A stretch of 40,107 nt of DNA from an uncultured Verrucomicrobiota bacterium (GTDB lineage: Bacteria; Verrucomicrobiota; Verrucomicrobiia; Opitutales; Opitutaceae), in the NCBI GenBank assembly GCA_903876795.1, contig CAIRBK010000096.1, positions 1 to 40,107 of the forward strand. The letters run 5' to 3'. Position numbers and translations under genes: made by a program. The notes beneath the pieces are model-generated. The model was not told the origin of the DNA. It saw only the letters and a program-made list of their open reading frames with translations, and did not search any database. This document shows, piece by piece, positions 19,920 to 32,061 of this stretch. How positions within the stretch are numbered: position 1 is the first letter of the stretch; each line of letters opens with the position of its first letter.

Positions 19920-20672
19920 ATGAAAAAACTTCTCATCATCCTCGGCGGCCTGTTCGCGTTAGCGCTCATAGGAGGGATTCTGGCCACCGTCTTCCTCGGC
20001 TCGGCCATCACCAGGGGCGTCAACACCTTCGCTCCCAAAATCACCGGCACCGCGGTCACGCTGGAGAGCACGTCGGTTTCGCCGTTCACCGGTTCCGGGA
20101 CGCTCAAGGGGCTCGTCGTCGGCAACCCCGTCGGCTGGAAGAGCGAGAAGGCGTTTTCCTTCGCCACCGTCCACGCCAGCGTCGAGCCGCTTTCGATACT
20201 CGGCGACCACGTCGTGGTGAAAGACGTACTCATCGACGGCCCCGAGTTCGTCTACGAGACCAAGATCATCAGCAGCAACATCAAGGACCTCCTCAACAAC
20301 ATCGAAAAAAACCTCGGCGGCGTACAACCCGCCGAACAACCGGCCGCCAAGGACCAAAAGCCCGCCAAGCCCCTCAAATTTGAGGTGAAAAACTTCCGGC
20401 TCCAAAACGCCAAAGTCACGCTCGGCGTGGGCGGTGCGGCGGTGACTTTGCCGATGCCTCCCATCGTGCTCACCGACCTGGGCACCGCCGAGGGCGGCAT
20501 CACCCCCGACCAGCTCGCCGCCAAGGTCATGAGCAACATCCTCGGCAACATCACCAAGGCCGTCGCCGACTCCGCCGTGCAAATCGGCTCAGCCGGCGGG
20601 GCCGCCGCCAGCGACGCCGTTTCGGGCGCCGCCAAGAAGGCCACCGAAGGTCTCAAGAAGCTCTTCAAGTAA
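19920..20672 (+). CDS. AsmA-like membrane-anchored envelope protein
   Basis: 250 residues. One N-terminal membrane anchor (KKLLIILGGLFALALIGGILATVF) puts the rest in the periplasm. Residues about 35-130 (ITGTAVTLESTSVSPFTGSGTLKGLVVGNP...SFATVHASVEPLSILGDHVVVKDVLIDGPEFVYE) follow the beta-strand pattern at the start of AsmA/DUF748-type proteins, which help move or organise envelope lipids. The C-terminal 60 residues are an Ala-rich helix. The domain is far shorter than AsmA itself. ATG at 19920. It is followed 22 bp later by the DsbA-like gene, so they may form an operon. Confidence 0.65.
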   Translation: MKKLLIILGGLFALALIGGILATVFLGSAITRGVNTFAPKITGTAVTLESTSVSPFTGSGTLKGLVVGNPVGWKSEKAFSFATVHASVEPLSILGDHVVVKDVLIDGPEFVYETKIISSNIKDLLNNIEKNLGGVQPAEQPAAKDQKPAKPLKFEVKNFRLQNAKVTLGVGGAAVTLPMPPIVLTDLGTAEGGITPDQLAAKVMSNILGNITKAVADSAVQIGSAGGAAASDAVSGAAKKATEGLKKLFK

Positions 20673-20693
20673 CTCCCCGATCCGCCCGCCGCC

Positions 20694-21377
20694 ATGCCCG
20701 CCGACGCCCCGGTCACCGTCACCTACTACCTCGAAGTGCTCTCTTCCTGGTGCCACTGGGCGGAACCGGCCTGGGCCGACTTGAAGGAACGCTACGCGGG
20801 CCGGGCCTGTTTCCGCTGGCGCATCGCCGCGATGAACCCCGGCGATTTCCCCGGCTCCCGCGAGCAGTGCGAATGGTTTTACCGGCGCAGCGGCACCGTC
20901 GTGAACTCGCCCCGCGCTCTGAGCGCCGGTTGGATCGATCCGGCGGGCCCGGGCGACTACGCCGTGCCCAACCTCGTCGCCGAAGCCGCCCGCGGCCTGC
21001 TCGCCGATCCCGAGGACGACCGGGTGCGGATCGCGCTCGCCTCAGCCGCCCTGCACGCGGGCCGGAAGATCGGCCACGACCTCGACCTCGCCGCCGCCAT
21101 CGCCGCCAAGGCAGCCAAAATCGACGTGAAAAAACTCCGCAAAACCGCCGCCTCGCCCGCCGTCCGCGAGCGCGTGGCCGCGTCCACCGCCGAGTTCGTT
21201 GCCCATCGGATCAACCGGCGCCCCGCGTTCGTGTTGACCAGCGTGATCGGCGACAAGGCCGTGTTCTCCGGCCTAGTCCGCGCCGAGCCGCTCGCCGCGA
21301 CGCTGGACGCGATGCTCGCCGACGCCGCCCGCTACGCCTCGTTCGCGGCCCACTTTGGCTCGCCGCCCAAGGGCTGA
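20694..21377 (+). CDS. DsbA-family thioredoxin-fold protein with a single active-site cysteine
   Basis: 227 residues. The N-terminal strand TVTYYLEVLSSWCHWAEPAW places a lone Cys at the thioredoxin-fold active site (SWCHWA); the second Cys of CxxC is replaced by Ala. An all-helical insert follows (about 85-165). The C-terminal NRRPAFVLTSVIGDKAVFSGLV has the cis-proline strand. This matches the DsbA/FrnE/HCCA-isomerase superfamily. With one cysteine it is more likely a glutathione-transferase- or isomerase-like enzyme than a disulfide oxidase. No signal peptide, so probably cytosolic. It lies 22 bp after the AsmA-like gene. Confidence 0.7.
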   Translation: MPADAPVTVTYYLEVLSSWCHWAEPAWADLKERYAGRACFRWRIAAMNPGDFPGSREQCEWFYRRSGTVVNSPRALSAGWIDPAGPGDYAVPNLVAEAARGLLADPEDDRVRIALASAALHAGRKIGHDLDLAAAIAAKAAKIDVKKLRKTAASPAVRERVAASTAEFVAHRINRRPAFVLTSVIGDKAVFSGLVRAEPLAATLDAMLADAARYASFAAHFGSPPKG

Positions 21378-21393
21378 GCACCGTCAAACAACG

Positions 21394-22908
21394 TCACGAC
21401 CGCCGCGGCTTGGGCGCGGCCGGCTCAGGCGGCGGCTCCATTCGCCAGTAAAGGCTCGCGATGGTCGCCCGGCCCAGCGGAAGCACCCCGACGAGAAAAG
21501 GCACCGTGCCGGGCTTCGCCCCGTCGGCGGAGGCAAAGTCGATCGTATCTACCCTCGGATACAATACACGCAGGGCCTCCAGGCCGTGGCGCGCCCAGTG
21601 GTCGCGCTCCTCGCCCGCGCCGACCGCCAGCGCCGCGACCCACAAAAGGCCCGCGATGTCCGGCGTCAGGCCGGACTCTTCGCGCAACGCCCGCCGGTGC
21701 AGGGCGGCGAAGGCCTCCCGGTCCGGCTGCATGACCAGCGTCGCAACCAGCTTGTCCCACTCCCCCGCCCCGGCCGCCCTGTCGACCAGCGCGGCAAACT
21801 CCATCGTGGCCAGCGAACGGTAGCCCTGCCCCGCGTCGATCCAGGACCGTGTCAGCAAGCGGTCGAAGTCGGGCAAGCCTTGCGCGTTCATTGTCCAGGC
21901 CATCTCCGCGTCCACCCGGGCGCCAATCAGCAACAGCAGTTGGATTTGATGAATAATCAGGCTGCCGGCCGCGCCGGGGGCGAACCGGTGGCGCAGGGCG
22001 GCCAGGGCTGCGTCCGCGTCGCCCGCAGACACCGCGGCGACGGCCTGCACCAGCCGTCCGGCGTCTGGACCGAAGCCGGCGAGGACTTCCTGATGTTCGC
22101 GCGTAAACTCAGGTCCGATCCGCCCCAGCCGCATGGCCAGGAGCAACGAGCCGAGCCACAACGGACGCTCCTGCTCCCGCACCCGGGCCCGGAGCAGGCA
22201 GAACCGCGCGAGTTCGTCGAAACGCCCCGCCGCCAACAACGTGTCGTGCCGGGTGACCGTCGTGCGAAAAAGTTGCCCGGGAAACTCCGCCTCCAGGCCA
22301 TCAAACAGGCGATCCGAGACCACCGTGGCGCCGGCGTAGGAGGCGTATTGGGCCATGAGCAGACGGGCATCGTAGTTGCGCGGATCCTGCGCGACCGCCG
22401 CGACCATCGAGCGATAGGCCGTGGCGTAGTCGCGCCGGGCGCAGGCGATCATCGCCCGCCGGAGAATATACCGCGAACGCTCCTGCTTGATTTCGCCCCA
22501 GGCCCCCGGCCAGGCGACTTGCCTCCAGGACAATGACTCCAACCCGGTCGCACGCAGCCCGACGAAGGCCGCCGTCGCCACGGCTAGATAAAGTGCCGCC
22601 GCGCCGCCGCCGAACACCGCCAAGGCACGCCCCCAAAACGGGCGAACCCGGGCCGCCTTCACGCCGCAGTAGGCGCCGCGTCCGGCGGGCCCAGGCACCA
22701 CCAGCGGGCACACCCGCCTGAATCGGAGCGGCTGATCGAAGTCGCGCGCGGCATCGCAGCGCACGCCGCCCGAGGAACCGACGTCGCTGGGGTTTTGACA
22801 GGGACATCGTCCGCGCCGCCCCCCAAGCATGTAGCGGGACTTGCGGACGTTCCAATAAATCAGGCCCCAGGCACAACGACAGGCGTCCGCCAGCCAGCCG
22901 ATCATCAT
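21394..22908 (-). CDS. Cys-rich N-terminus plus membrane helix plus helical-repeat protein
   Basis: 504 residues, no named family. Residues about 30-90 carry CPCQNPSD, a further Cys in GVRCDA, RVCPL and YCGV, a spacing that suggests a small zinc-ribbon-like fold. A single membrane helix follows (LAVFGGGAAALYLAVATAAFVGL, about 100-122). The remainder is a long Ala/Leu/Arg-rich helical region with TPR-like periodicity (RRDYATAYRSMVAAVAQDPRNYDARLLMAQYASYAG). It is probably a membrane-anchored scaffold. The start at 22906-22908 (second Met of an ATG-ATG pair) lies five bases after the PEP-CTERM stop, so the two genes are a transcription unit. An upstream GTG overlapping that stop is also possible. 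Confidence 0.65.
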   Translation of the reverse strand: MMIGWLADACRCAWGLIYWNVRKSRYMLGGRRGRCPCQNPSDVGSSGGVRCDAARDFDQPLRFRRVCPLVVPGPAGRGAYCGVKAARVRPFWGRALAVFGGGAAALYLAVATAAFVGLRATGLESLSWRQVAWPGAWGEIKQERSRYILRRAMIACARRDYATAYRSMVAAVAQDPRNYDARLLMAQYASYAGATVVSDRLFDGLEAEFPGQLFRTTVTRHDTLLAAGRFDELARFCLLRARVREQERPLWLGSLLLAMRLGRIGPEFTREHQEVLAGFGPDAGRLVQAVAAVSAGDADAALAALRHRFAPGAAGSLIIHQIQLLLLIGARVDAEMAWTMNAQGLPDFDRLLTRSWIDAGQGYRSLATMEFAALVDRAAGAGEWDKLVATLVMQPDREAFAALHRRALREESGLTPDIAGLLWVAALAVGAGEERDHWARHGLEALRVLYPRVDTIDFASADGAKPGTVPFLVGVLPLGRATIASLYWRMEPPPEPAAPKPRRS

Positions 22909-22913
22909 GGAGA

Positions 22914-23957
22914 TCACAGCGCCGCCTGCACCGCATCCCGCCGCACACCGCGGCGACGCTTGAAAAAAACGCCCGCAAACCCGACCCCGAGCATGCCCGC
23001 CATCTGGAAAAACGCCGCCGGCTCCGGCACGGGACTGCCGCCCGGGCGAAGGAATGTCGAGCCCGCCCCCAGCGAAGCGAAGGTCGTGCTGGAGTTGGTG
23101 TTGCCCGAAGTGCCGAGCAAGTCCTGGTTGATGGCGTTGCTTTGCGTGCTTGTGAACGCGACGAACGACATCCCGGAGTAGTCATTCACCGAGTAGTTGG
23201 AAAAGTAGCCCGCCGTCTCCGTGTAGGTCGCGCCATTCAGGACATAATACGCCGCGTAGGAACGAATGGCCGACTCCAGATTGGCATAGCTGATGGCGAA
23301 CGTGATCCAGGCGTTTGCAGAGTAGATCGGATTGCCATTGTTTCTAACCGGGCCGATGTTGATACCGTCGGTGACGGCGGTGTAGCTGTAGGTGTTGCTG
23401 TTCAGCGTGCCCAGCCCGCCCGGCGTGTTAAAGCTACCCCAGGAGGTCGTGCTGGGGGCGTCGTTGGCCCCCGTGCCCGGCTTGGCAAAATCAATGGATG
23501 TATTGGCACCCGTGGTGCCCTTGTAGTTCAACCGCATCACCAGGTTGACCTTGCCTTCTCCGGTGAGATCGATGCCCAGACTGAAATTACCACCGTTACC
23601 GCTTGGGTTGTATTCGCCGAAACGGGCGCGAAACGCGATGTATTGATTGGTCGGATCACTGTCCAGGAAACCAGCCTTTTGCTGGAAAGCCGCCGTCGTG
23701 GTCGTGCCAACAAAGTCGTCCGCAGGCTGTCCGGTTTGCTGGTCGGAGAACGGATCGGTGATGAGTGTGCCCTGCTGGTTATACCATGCGTTCCAGCCCG
23801 TCGTGTCGGTCACGGAAATGGCACGCAAGAACGGCGCGCCCATCGTCAAACCCAGCACCGCGACCGCCATCCCGGCAAGAAATCGAGCCGCAGGTTCGAG
23901 CGACATCCGACCGACGAAGGATGACCGACATAAAACAGGATGCATAAGGGGTATCAT
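22914..23957 (-). CDS. PEP-CTERM sorting-domain protein (secreted)
   Basis: 347 residues. A hydrophobic signal segment (FLAGMAVAVLGLTMGAPFLRA, about 23-43) is followed by a beta-rich, Asn/Thr/Gly-rich exported domain. The C-terminus has VPEPAAFFQMAGMLGVGFAGVFF, then a basic KRRRGVRRD tail: an exosortase-type PEP-CTERM signal. No enzyme motif was recognised. The start is uncertain: ATG 23955-23957, an ATG four codons later and one at residue 18 (MSLEPA) are all in frame, with no Shine-Dalgarno near any of them. It precedes the Cys-rich membrane protein on the same strand. Confidence 0.82.
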   Translation of the reverse strand: MIPLMHPVLCRSSFVGRMSLEPAARFLAGMAVAVLGLTMGAPFLRAISVTDTTGWNAWYNQQGTLITDPFSDQQTGQPADDFVGTTTTAAFQQKAGFLDSDPTNQYIAFRARFGEYNPSGNGGNFSLGIDLTGEGKVNLVMRLNYKGTTGANTSIDFAKPGTGANDAPSTTSWGSFNTPGGLGTLNSNTYSYTAVTDGINIGPVRNNGNPIYSANAWITFAISYANLESAIRSYAAYYVLNGATYTETAGYFSNYSVNDYSGMSFVAFTSTQSNAINQDLLGTSGNTNSSTTFASLGAGSTFLRPGGSPVPEPAAFFQMAGMLGVGFAGVFFKRRRGVRRDAVQAAL

Positions 23958-24172
23958 CGAACCGTGGAGGAAAAAAACCCCGTAGCGACTCGGAATAAGG
24001 ACATGTCCATTCAGGCCTATCGGACGACAACCCGACCAAAACCGACCAAGTCACGCATGAGGACGCACAAAGACTGCAAACGTAGCCCAAGAATGCGCTA
24101 GGCCCGGCGCACTTTTGCTGATGCAATGATCACCCCAAGTTTCACGCCAGATTCTCGCCCACACCATTCATC

Positions 24173-25057
24173 ATGTCCGAACATTCCAGCGGAGGTAAGC
24201 ACGAGGAGAAATTTTCCCCCGGGCTCTTCATTGTCACGATCATCCTCACGCTCGCCGGGCTCTTCACCGTGCTGGCCTTTGTCGCGCCTGGAGTCTGGCG
24301 CGCTCAGCTCGCCGCCGGCTGGCTGCCCTTCGCCGCCGTCTTTGTGGGCATCCACGCGGTCGCCGGGATTTTTGAATACTTTTTCCACCGCTACATCCTG
24401 CACGCGCCGCTGGTGCCGTGGCTGAGTTATTTTTACCGGCAACACACGCTCCACCACGCGCTCACGCACATCGGCTACCACCGCTCCAAGTTCACCGGCG
24501 CCGAGGTTCCCGGCCTGGTGGACAACGAGCACGTCGCCCGCAACCACTTCCCCATCGAGGAGGAAAAGCAGCATGAGGCATCCTACTTCCCGTGGTACTC
24601 TCTGCTGGTGTTCTCGCTCGTGGTCACGCCGCTGCTCGTGCTCGGCCAGTGGCTATTCCCGGCGGCGCCCTTTTTCCTCGCCGGCTACCTCGCCGTCGCC
24701 TGGTCGCTCGCGCTCTACGAACTCATCCACGCCGTCGAACACTGGCCGCAGGACACCTGGGACCGCCTGATCGGGCACCCGCGCCACGGCCGCTTCTGGC
24801 GCAAAGCCTACGCGTTCCACCTCCGCCACCACGCCGACATCCGTTGCAACGAGGGCATCTCCGGCATCTTCGGCCTGCCTTTGGTCGATTTCATCCTGGG
24901 CACCTACGTCGATCCCGAGACGCTCTACACCCACGGCACCCGCGTGGACGCGGCTCAATTCAACAGCCCGCGCCCCCGTTTCGGCTTCATCCGCTGGCTC
25001 GACCGCAAGGCCGACGAAGCTGTGAAAAACCGCCGCGCCGCCGCCCGGGCCGGTTAA
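24173..25057 (+). CDS. Fatty acid hydroxylase/sterol desaturase-like membrane protein
   Basis: 294 residues with four predicted membrane segments and clustered histidines of the di-iron hydroxylase superfamily: HRYILH (72-77), HTLHH (91-95) plus H99 and H103, HAVEHW in the third helix hairpin, and HLRHHADIR near residue 221. The arrangement resembles PF04116 members, which hydroxylate or desaturate membrane lipids. The spacing differs somewhat from canonical sterol desaturases, so the substrate is unknown. ATG at 24173. The stop is 50 bp before the valine-rich leader. Confidence 0.75.
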   Translation: MSEHSSGGKHEEKFSPGLFIVTIILTLAGLFTVLAFVAPGVWRAQLAAGWLPFAAVFVGIHAVAGIFEYFFHRYILHAPLVPWLSYFYRQHTLHHALTHIGYHRSKFTGAEVPGLVDNEHVARNHFPIEEEKQHEASYFPWYSLLVFSLVVTPLLVLGQWLFPAAPFFLAGYLAVAWSLALYELIHAVEHWPQDTWDRLIGHPRHGRFWRKAYAFHLRHHADIRCNEGISGIFGLPLVDFILGTYVDPETLYTHGTRVDAAQFNSPRPRFGFIRWLDRKADEAVKNRRAAARAG

Positions 25058-25107
25058 ACGCAGGCTTGACCAGCGCCCGTCCCGTCACCTTGGTTTCCCG
25101 AGTCTCC

Positions 25108-25206
25108 ATGAACCTCCGCAACACGACGCTCGCCGCCATCGCTTCCGCCCACTACTCCGTGGTCGCAGTCGTCGTGTCCGTTATGCACGCGCCGCGAGGG
25201 GCTTGA
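25108..25206 (+). CDS. Valine-rich leader peptide (branched-chain amino acid attenuator type)
   Basis: A 32-codon reading frame, ATG at 25108. Six of the eight codons 18-25 are valine (VVAVVVSV); it ends MHAPRGA. It is followed 16 bp later by a textbook terminator. A GAGGGG in its last codons (25196-25201) can pair with CCCCTC (25224-25229) in the terminator's 5' arm. That is the geometry of ilv-type attenuation: a ribosome stalled at scarce Val-tRNA would expose GAGGGG and block the terminator. The downstream gene is not ilv, which is odd. The peptide itself probably has no function. Confidence 0.7.
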   Translation: MNLRNTTLAAIASAHYSVVAVVVSVMHAPRGA

Positions 25207-25222
25207 GCGAACCAGATTTTCG

Positions 25223-25255
25223 CCCCCTCCGGTGCCTTGCCGGAGGGGGTTTTTT
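25223..25255 (+). terminator. Intrinsic terminator/attenuator after the leader peptide
   Basis: A perfect 10-bp stem, CCCCCTCCGG (25223-25232) with CCGGAGGGGG (25240-25249), with a 7-base loop and six T (25250-25255). The alternative pairing with the end of the leader frame is given under that entry. Confidence 0.93.
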
Positions 25256-25307
25256 GTGCCCCGGCCGGTCGGAACCGAGGGGGTGGTCAACCCAAACCAC
25301 ACCCGCC

Positions 25308-25523
25308 ATGAACAGCAACCGACTCAAGGACGCGCCGCGCTTCACACGGCCGCTCAACCTGCACCGGGAACTCCGCCGGGACATCACCCGTCCCTTTCAG
25401 GAAACACCGCGCCGGCCAGCCGCGCACGACATGCTCCTGCTCAATCTTCACGCGGATCTGCTCGCCGCCGTCGAACCGGTCGCGGCCCGCGACCTCGCGT
25501 TTTTCAACTGCGACTTCCCGTAA
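25308..25523 (+). CDS. Small hypothetical ORF downstream of the attenuator
   Basis: 71 residues starting MNSNRLKDAPRF; Arg/Leu-rich, no signal, no membrane segment and no recognised family. It is the only plus-strand reading between the attenuator and the convergent panE, which it overlaps by 20 bp at its 3' end. It could be a real small gene under the attenuator or the remnant of a replaced one. Evidence is limited to position and an uninterrupted frame. Confidence 0.35.
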   Translation: MNSNRLKDAPRFTRPLNLHRELRRDITRPFQETPRRPAAHDMLLLNLHADLLAAVEPVAARDLAFFNCDFP

Positions 25524-26481
25524 TCCCGACCTCCCCCTCCCCCCGCGCATGGACATCGTTTCCCCGTGACCGGATCGTCCGCAGCTCTTCATGCAGAGCC
25601 GCCAACTGCGGCGCCGGCACCCCGTGCGCCCGGGCGCGCCTCAACGGCTCCCCCCAGATGGGCTCCAACTCCAGCGGCCGGCCGGCGAGGTAATCAAGCA
25701 TCGTGGACGGCTTGTAGGGCATCGTCCGCGTCCGCTCGACGTTGTGCTCCAAAAACGCGTCCTCGATCTCCACGCCCTCGCATCCCGCGATGGCCTGGAT
25801 CTCGCGCATGAGCGCCCGCACGCGCGCCTCGCGCCGGGGCTCGCGCAGGATCTCGTCGCTCATCATCCCGCCCTCGACGACCGCGAGTCCGTTGAACGGC
25901 ACGTTCCACACCAGCTTGCGCCAACGCGCGGCCGGCAGGCTTGCCGACACATCGACCACGACGCCCGAGGAGCGCAGCAGAGCGGCCACCGATTCGGTCC
26001 GCGCGGTCGGCGCCCCGGAGAGCTCCCCCAGCACGACGTAACCGGCGTGCGCGCACACCGCCCGGCCCGGGGCCACGCGATTCACGCCCACGAAACATAG
26101 CCCGCCCAGCGTGCGGCCGGGGCCCGCGACTGCGGCCACCGCCTCGTCCACACCGAGACCGTTTTGAAAATTAACGACCGTGGTTTCCGCATGCAGCAAC
26201 GGCGGCAGCAACCGCCCGAGCCGGTCGTTGGCCGTGGCCTTCAGCGCGATCACCACCAGATCGACCGGACCGATCTCCTCGGGCGCGGCCGCCACTTTCA
26301 CCCTCGGCACCGTGAAGTCGTCCCCGGGCGACTGGACCTCGATGCCGCCCACACGCAACGCCTCCACGTCACCGCGCGCCAGAAACGTCACGTCGCCACC
26401 CGCGCGCGCCAGGCGACCGCCGTAGTAGAGGCCGAGCGCGCCCGTGCCGACGATGGCGATGGTTTTAAATTGCGGTGACAT
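25504..26481 (-). CDS. panE: 2-dehydropantoate 2-reductase (ketopantoate reductase)
   Basis: NADPH-dependent reduction of ketopantoate to pantoate in pantothenate synthesis; cytosolic. 325 residues. N-terminal Rossmann motif IAIVGTGALGLYYGGRLARAG, then VDLVVIALKATANDRLG and VVNFQNGLGVDEAV, with the ApbA/PanE lysine in RKLVWNVPFNGLAVVEGG near residue 188. The C-terminal domain has TMPYKPSTMLDYLAGRPLELEPIWG. The ATG is at 26479-26481. The last residues after about 305 are Arg/Gly-rich and variable. panD lies 16 kb away. The preferred substrate derives from ketoisovalerate, a valine intermediate, which makes the neighbouring valine leader notable, although panE is on the opposite strand. Confidence 0.93.
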   Translation of the reverse strand: MSPQFKTIAIVGTGALGLYYGGRLARAGGDVTFLARGDVEALRVGGIEVQSPGDDFTVPRVKVAAAPEEIGPVDLVVIALKATANDRLGRLLPPLLHAETTVVNFQNGLGVDEAVAAVAGPGRTLGGLCFVGVNRVAPGRAVCAHAGYVVLGELSGAPTARTESVAALLRSSGVVVDVSASLPAARWRKLVWNVPFNGLAVVEGGMMSDEILREPRREARVRALMREIQAIAGCEGVEIEDAFLEHNVERTRTMPYKPSTMLDYLAGRPLELEPIWGEPLRRARAHGVPAPQLAALHEELRTIRSRGNDVHARGEGEVGITGSRS

Positions 26482-26645
26482 ATCCCCGGATTACGAGGGT
26501 GGTCGCCCGCCGGCGGAAGCCTTTTTTGCATCGGTGGGCAGCAGGGGCACGGCGATACCAGCATCTTGCCGGCCGCGAGTTCAAACCTTCCGTCAACCCG
26601 GGCTTGAGCCATAAGTTGACCGCCTGGGCTCCCGTAACTGGACAT

Positions 26646-26690
26646 AAAAAAACCGCCCGGAAGCCAAGGGCTCCCGGGCGGCGTTGTTTT
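26646..26690. terminator. Bidirectional intrinsic terminator
   Basis: Stem CCGCCCGG (26653-26660) with CCGGGCGG (26674-26681), continued by AGCC/GGCT around a 3-base loop after one mismatch. A run of seven A precedes it (T-run on the minus strand) and GTTGTTTT follows. In the minus direction it lies just after the small ORF at 26697-26912, so it most likely ends that transcript. Confidence 0.85.
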
Positions 26691-26696
26691 CTGGTT

Positions 26697-26912
26697 TTAA
26701 CCGCGGGTCCGTGAGAACCGCGGGGGCGACGACATCCCGCGACCGCATATCCCGTGGAGACGGGCGGTCTGGGCCGGCGTCGCGGCTTCATACTGGTTAC
26801 GATCAACGTCCGCTGCAGGCTTGGCCGCCCTCGTTTTGTGCTTCCTAAAGAAGCCTGAGGGGGCAAACGCGCCGAGGACGTCCACCGTAAACGCGTTATT
26901 GGTCTTGTTCAT
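26697..26912 (-). CDS. Small hypothetical protein
   Basis: 71 residues, basic (Lys/Arg-rich, e.g. FFRKHKTRAAKPAADVDRNQYE), no signal peptide and no recognised family. The ATG (26910-26912) abuts a long hairpin, and a strong terminator follows the stop, so there is a short transcript of about the right size here. It could equally be a small RNA with a chance reading frame. Confidence 0.4.
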   Translation of the reverse strand: MNKTNNAFTVDVLGAFAPSGFFRKHKTRAAKPAADVDRNQYEAATPAQTARLHGICGRGMSSPPRFSRTRG

Positions 26913-26960
26913 GGTCAGATGGAGACGCCGGGCACAGGTGCCGACATCTCCTGGCTGACC
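26913..26960 (-). other. Long imperfect hairpin between the SNF2 gene and the small ORF
   Basis: Three nested perfect arms: GGTCAG/CTGACC (26913-26918, 26955-26960), GGAGA/TCTCC (26921-26925, 26947-26951) and GGCA/TGCC (26931-26934, 26939-26942). It ends exactly at the small ORF's start codon. It could be a 5' leader structure that hides that start, or a 3' structure of the helicase transcript. No T-run. Confidence 0.5.
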
Positions 26961-27040
26961 ACGGACCGATCAAAGAACCAGGCCATCCAATCCGTGTCGG
27001 GCAAAACGTCAACTCAGCAGCCCGGCTGCGTTTCCACGCC

Positions 27041-30000
27041 TCAGGCCAGGATGCGCTTGAGGCTTTCGAGGTCCATGACCGTGGACAGGCTCTCCTCTTG
27101 CACGACGGCGGCGGCCAGGGACGCCTTTTCGCGTTGGAGCAGGCGGATCTTTTCCTCGACCGTGCCTTCGGCCAGCAGGCGATACGCGATCACCGGCCGG
27201 GTCTGCCCGATGCGGTGGATGCGGTCGATCGCCTGCGCCTCGGCCGCCGGGTTCCACCACGGATCGTAAAGAATCGCGTAGCTCGCCGCCGTGAGATTCA
27301 GGCCGAAACCGGCGGCTTTCAACGAGAGCAGGAAAACGGTCCTGGTCTTGTCCGTCTGGAAGGTCTCGACCAACCCGGAGCGGTTCTCGGTCGCGCCTGT
27401 CAACATGAGGTGACCGATGCCCGCTGCGACCAGGCGGTCGCGAATGATCTCCAACATGCCGACGAATTGGCTGAAGACCAGGACTTGGTGCCCCTCCTCG
27501 GCGAGCTCCTCGACGCGTTCGAGCAGCGCCTCGAGCTTGGCGCTGGGCAGGTCGGCGTGCGCGGGATCGACCAGCGCGGGATGACAACATATCTGGCGCA
27601 GGCGGAGCAGGCTGGCGAGGACGTGGAAGCGCACGGCGTCGAGCGCGCTCTTGGTCTCGACTCCGAGGAGCTGGGCGCGGGCGCGTTTGAGCTCGGCGTC
27701 GTAGAGGAGACGCTGCCCGCCTTCCAGCCCGACGATGATCTCGTCCTCGGTGCGCGGCGGCAGGTCGGGCGCGGCCTGGGCCTTGGTACGGCGCAGCAGA
27801 AAGTGGCGCACCCGGCGGTGCAGGCGGGCCAGCGCGGCCGGGTCGGCTTCGTGGTACTGGCGGCGGAAACCGGCCTGGTCGCCCAGCAGGCCGGGCTGCG
27901 TGAAGGCGAACAGGCTCCAGAGGTCCGAGAGGCGGTTTTCGATCGGCGTGCCGGTGAGCACGACCCGGTGCCGCGCGCGCAAGGACCGGGCCGAAACGGC
28001 GACCTGGCTGCCGGGATTCTTGATGAACTGGCCCTCGTCGAGCACGACGGCGTCCCACGCGACGGTGCGGAAGGCGGCGGCGTGGAGGCGGAGCTGGGTG
28101 TAGTTGGCGACGAGGACCTGCGGGGCGCGCGCGACGGCGGCCGCGGCGGAGCACATGTCGGTGTTGAACGGGGCGATCTCCAGGCCGGGAGCGAAACGGG
28201 CGGTCTCGGCCAGCCAGCCGTGGGTCACGCTCTTCGGGCAGACGACCAGGGCGCGGAAGGGCGCGCCTTCCGGCGCGTCATCGCGGCGTAAAGCCGCTCC
28301 GGCATGGTCGGTCGCGACATGGAGGAGCCAGGCGAGGGTTTGCACGGTTTTGCCGAGACCCATGTCGTCGGCGAGGATGCCGCCGAAACCCTGGGCGGAG
28401 AGGTGGGCGAGAAACTGGAAACCTTCCCGCTGGTAAGGGCGGAGCGTGGCGCGGAGGCCGGCAGGCACGACGGCGGGAGGGAGCGCGGCGATGCGGGCGG
28501 CGCGGTCCTGCAGGACGTGCGCCAGCAGGGCGTCGCGTTGGGCGAGGGCCTCGGCATCGAGCGCGAGTTGCAGCACGTGCAGACGGTGTTTCGCCGGGCG
28601 GCCGCCGGCAAACACATCCTCGGCGGTGAGGCCGAGCCGGTCGAGCGTCGCGGCGGTGGCGGGATCGATTTTCGTGGCGGTATCGACGCGGCGCCAGCCG
28701 TGGCGCGGGAGGTTCACCCATTTGCCGCGGGCTTTGAGCAGGAGGGCGATTTCTTCGGGGCTGAGCGAGGTGTCGGCAACGCGCAGGCCCACCGTGAGAT
28801 CGAACCAGTCCTGGTCTGAACCGGGGGCGGCGGCGAACGAGAGATAGATGTCGGCCTCCAGGGGCGCGCCGAGCAGGTCGGCGAGTTCGGGAGAGAGCTC
28901 GATCTCCAGCCCGGGCGGGAGCGCGGCATGCCAGTCGAGAAACTCCTCGGGGAAGGAGCCGGTCACGGGGCGCGTCCAGGCGTCGGCCCAGCCGTCCCAC
29001 ACCAGACGGAAGCCACTCGTGAAGGCGGCGCTGGCGGCACGCGCCTCGCTCAGGTCAAACTCCAGCACGGGATCACCGGCAAGGCGCGACGGGGGCGTGG
29101 CCCCCTTGCTCCAATGCCACGCGGCGGGGGCCCCGGCCCACTGTTGCTCGCAAGGCGGCTGGTCGGAACGCGCGGTAAGTTGCACCTGGAAGTCGCGTTC
29201 GCTTCCCTCGAAGGCCGGCGAGAGCCAGCAGCGGAGACGCGGCCGGAGCGCGACCGTGCGCACCTCGGCGGCGAGCCCCGGGGGCAGGCGCAGGCCGGCG
29301 GCCCGCAGGCGCGGGAGCAGGCGGACGTCGTTGAGCGCGGCAACCGGGAGCTGGGCCGATGGCGGCCGGGGCGGACCTCGCCAAATGCGCCGGTCAAACA
29401 GGTAGAGCGGCTCGGGCGGCTGCGTGATGAGCATGGCGGCGTCGGCCACCCGGCCGTCGGGCGCGACCAAGCGCACGTCGAGTTGACCAGGCTTCGCCAC
29501 AGACGCGACGGCCTCGGGGACGAGCGGCTCGGACTCGATCGTGAACGGACTGCCATCCTCCAAGGCGAGCGCGGGACGGGCCGCCTGGGTGCGGATGAGA
29601 CCGGCCACGGCGGCGGCGGGCAGGTTTTTGGGAGCAAAACGCACGGTGGCGAGGCGGTATTCGGCGGCGAGCGCGGCGGCGAGCGCGGCCTCGGCGGGCG
29701 GCAGCGTTTGAAAATCGGCCGGACGCAACGCGGCGAGATCGGCCAACCATTTCAGAGGCGGGATTTTCCAGGGCTTGTCGGCCGAGGAGCGCGTCTCGAC
29801 CTGCCAACCGCCGGACGCGTCGAGGCGCACGCGCAGCCCGGCGATGCCCGCCAGCGGTCCGGGACGCGCGGCGAGCGCGGGCTCGTCGACCGAGGGGAAC
29901 GCCTGCAGCCAGCCGGCCAGGGCCGATTCCAGGGCGCGATCCACGGTGGGTGCGCCGGCCGTGACAAAGGGAGTCGCGGGCGCGGACGGGATGTCGTCGG

Positions 30001-30340
30001 GATTGCGCCCGTCGCGCGCGCCGGACTCGACGGCGCGGAGCCAGGCGAGACCGGCGGCGTAGGCGTGTTTGCAGTCGCTGACGACGGGGCAGGAGCAGCG
30101 CGACGACCACGTCCCGCGCGTGAGAAACAGCGTGAGCTCGTAGTCTTCGGTTGCGCTCACCGCGGCTTTGACGAGATGGTCGGCGGCGGACCAGACGGCG
30201 GAAACCGAGCCGGACTTGAAGTAGGCTTCGCCGCGCAGACGCGTGCCCGAGTCGAAGGAATCGAGCCAGAGTCGCAGCGCCTCCAAGGCCTCGGGCGTGC
30301 GGACGCTGCGCACTTGGGGCTGGCGAGGACGGGCAGGCAT
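27041..30340 (-). CDS. SWIM-SNF2 family helicase/ATPase (paralogue A)
   Basis: 1099 residues. A SWIM zinc finger near the N-terminus (C82-x-C84, C90-x-H92 in RCSCPVVSDCKHAYA) is followed by about 500 residues of poorly conserved, Arg/Ala-rich sequence. The SNF2 ATPase core comes next: Walker A DDMGLGKT near 657, DEGQ (instead of DEAH) near 767, and the C-terminal helicase lobe with LVFSQF and HRIGQ near 1042. The protein ends VVQEESLSTVMDLESLKRILA. Such proteins translocate on duplex DNA and displace bound protein, for example stalled RNA polymerase; the exact role is unknown. The ATG is at 30338-30340. It is a paralogue of the 34246-37932 gene. Confidence 0.93.
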   Translation of the reverse strand: MPARPRQPQVRSVRTPEALEALRLWLDSFDSGTRLRGEAYFKSGSVSAVWSAADHLVKAAVSATEDYELTLFLTRGTWSSRCSCPVVSDCKHAYAAGLAWLRAVESGARDGRNPDDIPSAPATPFVTAGAPTVDRALESALAGWLQAFPSVDEPALAARPGPLAGIAGLRVRLDASGGWQVETRSSADKPWKIPPLKWLADLAALRPADFQTLPPAEAALAAALAAEYRLATVRFAPKNLPAAAVAGLIRTQAARPALALEDGSPFTIESEPLVPEAVASVAKPGQLDVRLVAPDGRVADAAMLITQPPEPLYLFDRRIWRGPPRPPSAQLPVAALNDVRLLPRLRAAGLRLPPGLAAEVRTVALRPRLRCWLSPAFEGSERDFQVQLTARSDQPPCEQQWAGAPAAWHWSKGATPPSRLAGDPVLEFDLSEARAASAAFTSGFRLVWDGWADAWTRPVTGSFPEEFLDWHAALPPGLEIELSPELADLLGAPLEADIYLSFAAAPGSDQDWFDLTVGLRVADTSLSPEEIALLLKARGKWVNLPRHGWRRVDTATKIDPATAATLDRLGLTAEDVFAGGRPAKHRLHVLQLALDAEALAQRDALLAHVLQDRAARIAALPPAVVPAGLRATLRPYQREGFQFLAHLSAQGFGGILADDMGLGKTVQTLAWLLHVATDHAGAALRRDDAPEGAPFRALVVCPKSVTHGWLAETARFAPGLEIAPFNTDMCSAAAAVARAPQVLVANYTQLRLHAAAFRTVAWDAVVLDEGQFIKNPGSQVAVSARSLRARHRVVLTGTPIENRLSDLWSLFAFTQPGLLGDQAGFRRQYHEADPAALARLHRRVRHFLLRRTKAQAAPDLPPRTEDEIIVGLEGGQRLLYDAELKRARAQLLGVETKSALDAVRFHVLASLLRLRQICCHPALVDPAHADLPSAKLEALLERVEELAEEGHQVLVFSQFVGMLEIIRDRLVAAGIGHLMLTGATENRSGLVETFQTDKTRTVFLLSLKAAGFGLNLTAASYAILYDPWWNPAAEAQAIDRIHRIGQTRPVIAYRLLAEGTVEEKIRLLQREKASLAAAVVQEESLSTVMDLESLKRILA

Positions 30341-30429
30341 GGAATCCAGGAAGGTGTGGTGAAAGACGCGAAGGCGCAGGGGCCGTCAAAAAGGCCGTGA
30401 GGATGGCCCGATGCTGCGACAAAAATCGT

Positions 30430-31155
30430 TTATTTTATGGCCGCGTTGCGCAGGACTTCTTTGACGAAGCCGGGGGCATCCATGCCGGCATTTTTGGCGT
30501 CGGCCTTCAGCCGTTCGTAGTGCGGGGTTTCTTCGCCCTGCCAGAGCAGGTCAACGCGGCGAAGTGGCTTGAGGGCGATGTGCGTGTGAGTTTCAGGGTA
30601 AGCCCGATAACAGCTCAGGCATAGCTCGCGCTTTTTAAGGTTCTTCCAGTTTTCGCAGTGTTCGCAGGACCAGCTTTTGGCGCGATTGGCAGAGCCTGAA
30701 AGCAACATGAACTCATCGGGAGACATGCTGACAGATTCGCCACTTACTTCATACGGAACACGGTGATCGATCTGAAGGTCAGCTTCCGGCATCCCTTCGA
30801 GGTAGATGAAACAGCGGCACCCGTATTTGGAGACGAGGGCATCTTTGTTATGTTTGGACAGGCCGGTGCGTCCGACGAATTTGCGCACTGGGGCAGTCTT
30901 CGGATCGGCGAAGCGGCAGGCAGCGATCTTGCGTCCGTCGGCCCCCACAGCGCTCACGCGCTCAATCGGGATGCCCTGTTCTTTGACGTCACGCACGGCG
31001 CGGGGCAGGTGATTATAGCCGTAGCGGTTTTTCAAATCCTCGGTGGTGATCTGGCCGTGCTTGAGCAGGTGGTCTATCACGGTTTTCGGACGCTTGGCGG
31101 TGACCGCGCGGCAGAACTCGACAAACTTCTTGGGCAGGTTCTCTTCCGTGAGCAT
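30430..31155 (-). CDS. HNH-family type II restriction endonuclease, unknown specificity
   Basis: 241 residues. The N-terminus (about 25-65) is a winged-helix-like DNA-binding segment (TVIDHLLKHGQITTEDLKNRYGYNHLPRAVRDV). The nuclease core has LQIDHRVPYEV (D130, H131) and N157 in GSANRAKS, the D/H and N of an HNH/beta-beta-alpha-metal site. It is interleaved with two CxxC pairs (CEHC at 164-167, CLSC at 179-182) that would bind a structural zinc. The methylase gene lies 6 bp upstream on the same strand, the standard R-M pairing. The recognition site cannot be predicted. Confidence 0.8.
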   Translation of the reverse strand: MLTEENLPKKFVEFCRAVTAKRPKTVIDHLLKHGQITTEDLKNRYGYNHLPRAVRDVKEQGIPIERVSAVGADGRKIAACRFADPKTAPVRKFVGRTGLSKHNKDALVSKYGCRCFIYLEGMPEADLQIDHRVPYEVSGESVSMSPDEFMLLSGSANRAKSWSCEHCENWKNLKKRELCLSCYRAYPETHTHIALKPLRRVDLLWQGEETPHYERLKADAKNAGMDAPGFVKEVLRNAAIK

Positions 31156-31161
31156 GGGAAA

Positions 31162-32061
31162 TCAGAACAGGACCGACTGCTCAAGATGACGCTTCATCGT
31201 TTTGGGGACTGGCGGGAGCTCTGCGGAGAGCGCGGGTGATAGGTAGAGGGACTCCACGGTTTTTTCTTCTCGGCCCAGCAAAGTCGCCTGGGAGGAGCGG
31301 CCGGCATCAAGTTCGACGAGCGACAGGTTCAGGTAGGCGGGGAGCGGTTCGCCGTAGGATTTGTCGCCGGTGCGACCGTCGTAGCTGATGACGTAGCGCA
31401 GGCCACGCGAGTTGAGTCCGTCCAGCGCGGCGACGAAATGATCGAAGGAGATGCCTGCGAGATAACGAGAATCGCGGTCGCCCGACGTGCCTTGGTAGGG
31501 CGGGTCCATGTAAACGACGTCGTTTTCATCGGCAGCGGCGAGCACGTCACGGAAGTCGTGCGAAGTGACGATGGACTTGCCGCGAAGCAGCCCCGAGGCG
31601 GCCATGATGTTCTGTCGCATCGTTTCGGGGCGTGTGCCCAAACGACGTTTGTCGGGGCTTTGATTAAAAAGGCCTTCGGCGTTGTAGCGGACGGCTCCTT
31701 TGATGCAGCGGGCGAGAAGGTAGAGAAAGAGTTTCGGCTCTTGGGTGCGGTTAAACGTTTCGCGCACCGTGTAGTAGTGCTCAAGCGCGTCTTCGTCGTC
31801 GGCTTTCCAGAGATTCGTGTAGTGGTCTGCCACCTCTTCGGGGCGGTTGATGATGAGGTTGACCAACTCGGCGAGCGGTTTGTTGAGGTCGTTGATCCAA
31901 TAGCGCGAGGCGCGGTTGCGGGCGGCGCAGGCAATGGACATGGCCGCAGAACCCGCGAATGGCTCGACGAGGCGATGGAACTTAGACGGTAGAAAGTCCA
32001 AGATAAGGGGAGCGAGCGCGCGCTTGCTGCCTTGATACTGGAAGGGCTGCGGGACGTTCAT
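31162..32061 (-). CDS. DNA adenine N6-methyltransferase (Dam-like, alpha class) of the HNH R-M unit
   Basis: 299 residues. Motif X is FQYQGSKRAL, motif I (SAM binding) is VEPFAGSAAMSI near residue 33, and motif IV (catalytic) is DPPYQGTSGDRDSRYL near 185. The order X-I-IV is the alpha class, which methylates adenine N6. It should protect the host from the HNH nuclease encoded 6 bp downstream. ATG at 32059-32061. The site specificity is not readable from sequence. Confidence 0.88.
   Translation of the reverse strand: MNVPQPFQYQGSKRALAPLILDFLPSKFHRLVEPFAGSAAMSIACAARNRASRYWINDLNKPLAELVNLIINRPEEVADHYTNLWKADDEDALEHYYTVRETFNRTQEPKLFLYLLARCIKGAVRYNAEGLFNQSPDKRRLGTRPETMRQNIMAASGLLRGKSIVTSHDFRDVLAAADENDVVYMDPPYQGTSGDRDSRYLAGISFDHFVAALDGLNSRGLRYVISYDGRTGDKSYGEPLPAYLNLSLVELDAGRSSQATLLGREEKTVESLYLSPALSAELPPVPKTMKRHLEQSVLF

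Follow-up and report, generated by a model that had tools for sequence, protein, structure and literature searches.

A valine-type attenuator conserved in Opitutaceae stands before a small gene that probably derives from an acetolactate synthase operon

Amino acid attenuators normally stand before the pathway they serve. In Escherichia coli, the ivbL-ilvBN attenuator places a Val-rich leader peptide, a terminator and an antiterminator before ilvB-ilvN. A leader of the same build, Val-rich and with both a terminator and an antiterminator, occurs in the window analyzed here, a 40,107-nt stretch of DNA from an uncultured Verrucomicrobiota bacterium of the family Opitutaceae, but it precedes a 71-codon ORF (plus strand, 25308-25523; core AHDMLLLNLHADLL) instead of ilvBN. 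Which gene does this switch serve, and how did it come to stand there? A sequence-only reading of the window had proposed that either the regulated gene is novel and senses valine, or an ilv operon has moved away and left its switch behind.

By its anatomy, the locus contains the complete Val-type attenuator that had been described. The 32-residue leader ORF (plus strand, 25108-25206; MNLRNTTLAAIASAHYSVVAVVVSVMHAPRGA followed by a stop codon) carries the putative regulatory codons GTG GTC GCA GTC GTC GTG TCC GTT at 25159-25182, with Val codons starting at 25159, 25162, 25168, 25171, 25174 and 25180, which bears out the reported six Val in eight codons. The intrinsic terminator and its T run (plus strand, 25223-25255) likewise showed the expected perfect stem of 10 pairs, 25223-25232 with 25240-25249, followed by T6 (hairpin, -25.8 kcal/mol). 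The antiterminator had been given as 25196-25201 (GAGGGG) paired with 25224-25229 (CCCCTC); this pairing is present and extends further, in that 25189-25201 and 25224-25235 can form a helix of 12 bp (-20.3 kcal/mol) from which a single base is bulged out. Its 5′ arm (plus strand, 25189-25201) overlaps the conserved peptide end APRG, and its 3′ arm (25224-25235) is shared with the terminator. The leader stop codon at 25204 is located just 3′ of the 5′ arm, where a ribosome would mask that arm in the usual geometry of attenuation. Folding of 25109-25257 was better than that of its dinucleotide shuffles, of which 2 of 200 did equally well (z = -2.46). Attenuators of the ilv/ivbL type combine a leader ORF with regulatory codons, an intrinsic terminator and a maskable antiterminator, all of which are found here. 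They also control a biosynthetic gene for the same amino acid, which is not the case in the window, where the leader is followed by the small ORF and then by antisense panE. We could assign the leader to no known RNA family: Rfam 15 gave 0 matches in the window at the gathering score, and at a relaxed threshold 25000-25600 gave four weak matches, the top one at 20 bits compared to a gathering score of 49.5.

Judging from this anatomy and from the conservation described below, the device would be a ribosome-mediated transcription attenuator sensing charged Val-tRNA. With enough valine, the ribosome would reach the stop codon at 25204 and cover 25189-25201, and the terminator would form. When valine is short, the ribosome would stall on 25159-25182, the 12-bp antiterminator would form, and transcription would enter the 71-codon ORF.

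The switch is conserved across Opitutaceae. DNA matches in five sister genomes extended over leader, terminator and ORF at 73-76% identity; in three further genomes of the same genus and in other genera, the best DNA match covered mainly leader and terminator. In an alignment of 23 leaders, bases were paired in 98.7% of 230 terminator cells and in 93.8% of 276 antiterminator cells. Because sliding the 3′ arms lowered these figures to at most 70% and 60%, respectively, the leaders pair more than expected by chance. Two-sided base changes occurred at two pairs in each helix. Covariation of the antiterminator was modest (8 of 500 shuffles reached its score), because its 5′ arm codes for the conserved APRG and is nearly invariant. 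A covariance model of the leader matched 163 of 250 genomes of the family at E ≤ 1e-3, the weakest of these matches probably reaching down to chance, and gave exactly one match in the genome of the window. Of 12 genomes of the same genus, three had no leader match, and in one (G003) the strongest match was the leader of an MFS gene. Eight loci from an order-wide search were examined: four looked real and were outside the family, one was in the family, and three, with E values of 3e-6 to 7e-5, were ordinary terminators. The last 20 residues of 131 leader peptides were 32% Val, and 124 of the 131 had at least four Val in some 8-codon window; both figures lean upward, because for each terminator a script took the preceding frame richest in Val (mis-picking some of the 131, e.g. 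L183) and the covariance model had been trained on Val-rich leaders.

We then looked at the genes behind the related leaders, as the sequence-only reading had suggested. The survey took in 139 loci, 130 of them better-scoring covariance-model matches and nine DNA matches, with weaker or unlisted matches left out, and genes were called with a simple script, not a gene finder. Terminators were placed by the script's pattern or by a manual string; L018, an MFS gene by eye, was missed by the pattern and left out of the leader alignment and of the count, which then comprised 138 loci in 135 genomes. At 28 of these, the leader stood before ilvB2, the gene for a second acetolactate synthase large subunit. 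Behind 16 of the 28, ilvN2, encoding an AHAS-type ACT small subunit, was matched as well, and 8 of the other 12 had short flanks. Far more often, at 100 of the 138 loci, the window's included, the leader was followed by a small ORF. It is 60-99 codons long, shows the pattern [HN]D[FLM]L within a motif like HDFLVLNxRPDL and starts 40-87 nt 3′ of the terminator. Three more loci had variants of the motif (YTDFLALAFYPG in G201 and G263 and, by eye, THGLLVPVNHLELL in G066). The other leaders preceded ilvN2 alone (G016) or an MFS transporter (G003), or ran off the contig (five). An intact small ORF, variants included, was thus present at 103 of the 103 loci that neither ran off the contig nor had an ilv enzyme or MFS gene, compared to 0 of 346 shifted downstream windows and 8 of 414 reverse-strand windows with a motif ORF. 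The one IlvN2 tested, from G016, had its best NCBIfam score with PRK08178, AHAS small subunit (78 bits, below the cut-off of 128). Outside the family, the leader in G270 and G316, two genomes of another family, is followed by an ilvB2 frame that stays open, over at least 480 aa, up to the end of the locus; in G301, it precedes a small ORF with HDFLVVNPRPDL.

The window's small ORF had been described as unknown, and this is borne out. No known protein family could be assigned to six small ORFs, the window's included: searches of Pfam/NCBIfam gave no match up to E = 1, and an ACT domain match over cut-off, which would mark an IlvN/IlvH protein, was absent from all six. An HMM of the motif built from 91 ORFs outside the window's genus recovered the window ORF at E = 1.1e-5 (Z = 10) and nine of nine genus members below 1e-3, compared to two of 1800 shuffles (best 5.2e-4). 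Among the 100 ORFs, the motif columns held H in 90, D in 99, F in 74 and L in 100, these four places being the pattern by which the ORFs were selected, then V in 60 and, at the tenth place, P in 86. The sequences are variable and Pro-rich; two of the ORFs (L138, L181) were moved to an inner start. dN/dS was 0.10-0.60 in 74 of 74 pairs (Nei-Gojobori, own script), drawn from nine hand-chosen groups with 39 of the 100 ORFs and with many pairs near saturation at silent sites. The conservation that we had been advised to check extends to the window ORF itself, with dN/dS of 0.24-0.60 against five sister species, and the small ORF is under purifying selection. Valine content of the small proteins is low, 2.5%, as a product made in valine shortage might have.

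The core of the small ORFs resembles the C-terminal tail of IlvN2, and in this the family is like the AHAS regulatory subunit IlvN (ACT; PF22629, TIGR00119), but it is without the rest of the ACT domain. In ilvB2 operons, IlvN2 ends in ..LHDVLAVRQRPDLPPDYF.. or similar; an example from a small ORF is HDFLVLTQRPDLTPEMF. An HMM of the IlvN2 C-terminus, built without a garbled small-subunit row (L116), matched 25 of 100 small ORFs at E ≤ 0.1 (best 3.6e-8), compared to 7 of 2000 plain shuffles (best 0.0095), and 0 of 100 reversed sequences matched at E ≤ 1. The choice of ORFs favors these matches, since the selecting pattern has HD.L in common with IlvN2, and plain shuffles favored the mini-gene reading given below. 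When the four motif residues were held in place, 19 of 2000 shuffles matched at E ≤ 0.1 (best 0.0088); the excess, though smaller, persists and thus goes beyond the selection pattern. Profile against profile (hhalign), small ORFs and IlvN2 aligned in register with a probability of 76% and P = 2.4e-5. A whole-ACT HMM separated less (27 of 100 at E ≤ 1 compared to 131 of 2000 shuffles). A tail like the LHDVLxVRxRPDLxPxFF of IlvN was found in the small-ORF family as a group; 61 of the 100 ORFs had no match to the IlvN2 tail at E ≤ 1. The window ORF, which is one of these, aligned in register but not significantly (E = 0.59 at Z = 10, 5.9 at Z = 100), and in the sister genome G010 the match aligned to another stretch, PRPDITRPFFE. 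By eye, the small-ORF motif also resembles KHSYLVLNAADLP in the main IlvB.

At the other end, a minority of the small ORFs resemble the start of IlvB2 (for example, MKTTGARLLRTLLERQGIHTIAGIPGGAILPFYDAL). An HMM of the IlvB2 N-terminus matched 13 of 100 at E ≤ 1, compared to 25 of 2000 plain and 28 of 2000 motif-keeping shuffles; individually these matches are weak (best E 0.0018), and the window ORF gave none. The matches were collinear with the start codon in 11 of 13 cases, compared to 1 of 25 in shuffles. Of 100 ORFs, 9 had both ends in the right order at E ≤ 1, compared to 0 of 2000 plain and 1 of 2000 motif-keeping shuffles; at E ≤ 3 the count was 10 of 100, compared to 5 and 10 of 2000, respectively. 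The nine two-ended ORFs come from several genera and are not independent, and because related genomes are not independent, the shuffle counts overstate significance. The window ORF has diverged too far for either end to be significant singly, and it is tied to IlvB2 and IlvN2 only through the family motif.

Our reading of these results is that, most likely, ilvBN lost its middle part and the regulated gene is the mini-gene that remained. The leader would originally have controlled a second operon for acetolactate synthase, ilvB2-ilvN2. A copy of leader-ilvB2-ilvN2 would then have lost everything between the ilvB2 start and the ilvN2 end, from which the two ends of the mini-gene would descend, and the fused gene would have been kept as the source of a small protein produced when valine runs short. 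We consider it probable that a Val-tRNA attenuator once belonging to ilvB2-ilvN2 now stands before such a mini-ilvBN gene; descent of the window's own ORF is suggested through the family motif. Each half of the original either/or therefore stands in part. The switch does serve an ilv operon in relatives, ilvB2-ilvN2, but the operon has not simply moved away; the regulated gene does belong to a conserved small-ORF family, but one with likeness to both ends of that operon.

The loss would not have been a plain deletion of ilvBN in place, because the flanks are not shared and two genomes (three if the G066 variant counts) have both a small ORF and ilvB2. When the flanks of 11 small-ORF loci were compared with those of 5 ilvB2 loci, a common neighborhood could be rejected, only a weak ABC-ATPase similarity to one locus being found; four of the five ilvB2 loci shared flanking genes with another ilvB2 locus. 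Such a difference in flanking genes would also fit a duplicated Val leader that captured a small protein family of separate origin, with convergence as the source of the likeness to IlvB2 and IlvN2. The N-termini, 87 of 100 of which had no IlvB2 match at E ≤ 1, the many ORFs lacking an IlvN2-tail match and the window ORF, which lacks both, would sit well with that. Convergence is nevertheless argued against by the two ends found in order, by the collinearity of the IlvB2 matches with the start codon, by the excess of IlvN2-tail matches over motif-keeping shuffles and by the hhalign P value, and we regard capture as unlikely.

The small ORF might alternatively matter for what follows it. Homologues of four proteins (ilvB2, ilvN2, an aminotransferase and the MFS transporter) were sought as a conserved gene behind the small ORF, and such a gene was rejected, the aminotransferase being found at 17 of 100 loci. 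Eight sister genomes have the small ORF behind the leader, and in seven of them, all but G010, the ORF is followed by a class I/II PLP aminotransferase (PF00155, one tested). At 14 of the 17 loci, the called start of the aminotransferase overlaps the ORF stop by 4 bp, and in some sister species the small ORF may also serve as a translational lead-in to this gene. The small ORF could thus be a coupling ORF for the aminotransferase, yet no aminotransferase was matched at 83 of 100 small-ORF loci, and at 74 of these the sequence examined extends at least 1200 nt downstream. The leader-linked aminotransferase was not found in the window genome, where the best match was 33% identical.

From this arises a second alternative, in which the ORF has no protein function: the switch would have been inherited together with an ORF that served the aminotransferase as spacer or for coupling and that has lost this partner in the window lineage. 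The overlapping starts and the missing partner beside the window ORF would be expected under it, but the ORF and its motif are intact at the many loci without the aminotransferase, and dN/dS is below 1, also for the window against its sisters. In G010, too, the aminotransferase is missing beside an intact small ORF. Because the ORF is intact without an adjoining aminotransferase in both the window and G010, it arguably matters by itself, and we find a function-free ORF rather improbable. This alternative and capture of an independent family are not mutually exclusive.

The next gene after the small ORF in the window is panE, which had been reported as antisense, and is. This panE-like 2-dehydropantoate 2-reductase gene (minus strand, 25504-26481; TIGR00745, 216 bits, over cut-off) is convergent with the device and not part of it. 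It overlaps the 3′ end of the small ORF by 20 nt (25504-25523), tail to tail on the other strand, and its stop codon is inside the small ORF. A link of the switch to pantoate synthesis, raised in the sequence-only reading, was rejected: panE is antisense and, by eye, absent from the genes around the leader in sister species.

On the 5′ side, the leader has what may be its own promoter, a -35-like TTGACC (plus strand, 25066-25071) and, after a 17-nt spacer, a -10-like CTTGGT (plus strand, 25089-25094), both in line with the family consensus. TTGACA with at least 5 of 6 matches was present at 123 of 131 leaders, compared to 112 of 655 control windows, and in 118 of the 123 it begins 36-49 nt 5′ of the leader start codon. 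The 106 leaders with TTGAC show a -10 consensus of C(79) T(82) T(63) n n T(77) in the columns 17 nt past the -35 box. A strict sigma-70 scan of 20001-32000 found no promoter, and an upstream gene, described earlier as hydroxylase-like (plus strand, 24173-25057; no Pfam match over cut-off), ends 50 nt 5′ of the leader, with the same neighbor in the sister species examined. These two observations would suit a mere terminator of this co-directional gene with a chance Val-rich frame, but that is hardly credible and was rejected, since the Val run is conserved together with the terminator, not lost beside it, and promoter-like boxes, antiterminator and peptide end are conserved along with it in genera with other upstream genes.

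If the small protein is expressed, what would it do? Over cut-off, the window genome contains a single ilvB and a single ilvN/H; ilvN2 was absent at E ≤ 1e-3, and no leader or terminator was visible by eye upstream of the main ilvB. Most likely, the small protein would act on this remaining acetolactate synthase through its ACT-strand-like motif. Induced by valine starvation and still bearing the tail of a regulatory ACT subunit, such a fragment could attach to the acetolactate synthase complex and alter the feedback that valine exerts on it. A more specific proposal, which we put forward only tentatively, is a valine-starvation microprotein made from fused operon ends that mimics the C-terminal strand of IlvN and tunes the remaining enzyme, for instance by relieving valine feedback on it. 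Were this true, the family would have exchanged a switched isozyme for a switched regulator.

The open-access literature, among the matches listed, held no attenuator or Val leader from Verrucomicrobia or Opitutaceae and no acetolactate synthase microprotein of this system. Nearest to it is a discussion of ilvB-associated uORF motifs, in the parts of which that concern us uORF-mediated attenuation before ilvB is proposed or tested for the ilvB-OMG, ilvB and Corynebacterium ilvB-II motifs, and a Leptospira motif is described with at least three consecutive Val codons (PMC10272879). The ilvB-OMG, ilvB and ilvB-II motifs in those parts precede ilvB, while the window leader precedes a small ORF (PMC10272879). 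At most of the places surveyed here, the switch stands before a small gene that is seemingly a remnant of the enzyme pair formerly under its control. Confirmation would make this a clear natural case of a large operon shrunk to a selected microprotein with its regulation kept. It would also give a handle on how branched-chain amino acid synthesis is tuned in these bacteria, because in the window genome no leader is seen before the main ilvB.

The motif codons of the small ORFs have a peculiarity of their own. They favor CAC GAY TTY CTC GTG, which forms the inverted repeat CACGA-N5-TCGTG (e.g. L165, L140, L160). Inverted-repeat stems of at least 5 were found in 60 of 100 small ORFs, compared to 22% expected from synonymous codons, and Leu-Val was written CTCGTG in 45 of 60 cases in the motif, compared to 20% of 557 elsewhere. 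Is this a second, RNA-level constraint? The CACGA-N5-TCGTG repeat is absent from the window ORF, and we therefore keep the motif-codon hairpin outside the explanation. A hairpin between terminator and start codon was weak (mean z -0.96; 100 loci, 30 mononucleotide shuffles each).

Several loci deserve separate mention. In G010 (L079, G010:C73:9000-15676, and L004), the small ORF is soon followed by a stretch that resembles the gene (MKLSALLASR..) located behind the aminotransferase in sister species. An MFS transporter gene comes directly after a Val-type leader and terminator at L066 (G007:C115:13000-30000), L068 (G006:C47), L211 (G003:C85) and, by eye, L018 (G017:C1). The leader-linked MFS gene is possibly a valine-linked transporter; no homologue of this kind was found in the window genome at E ≤ 1e-40. 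Beside the Val-attenuated ilvB2 operon at L075, L076 and L080 is a conserved neighbor, 81-86% identical between loci, which by eye we take to be an ABC-F ATPase. At L229 (G280:C1:156651-156810), in another family, a Val leader is followed by an acetolactate synthase gene with, by eye, a large internal in-frame deletion. This shrunken ilvB, its N-terminus fused to its C-terminal part, is a parallel case behind the same kind of switch.
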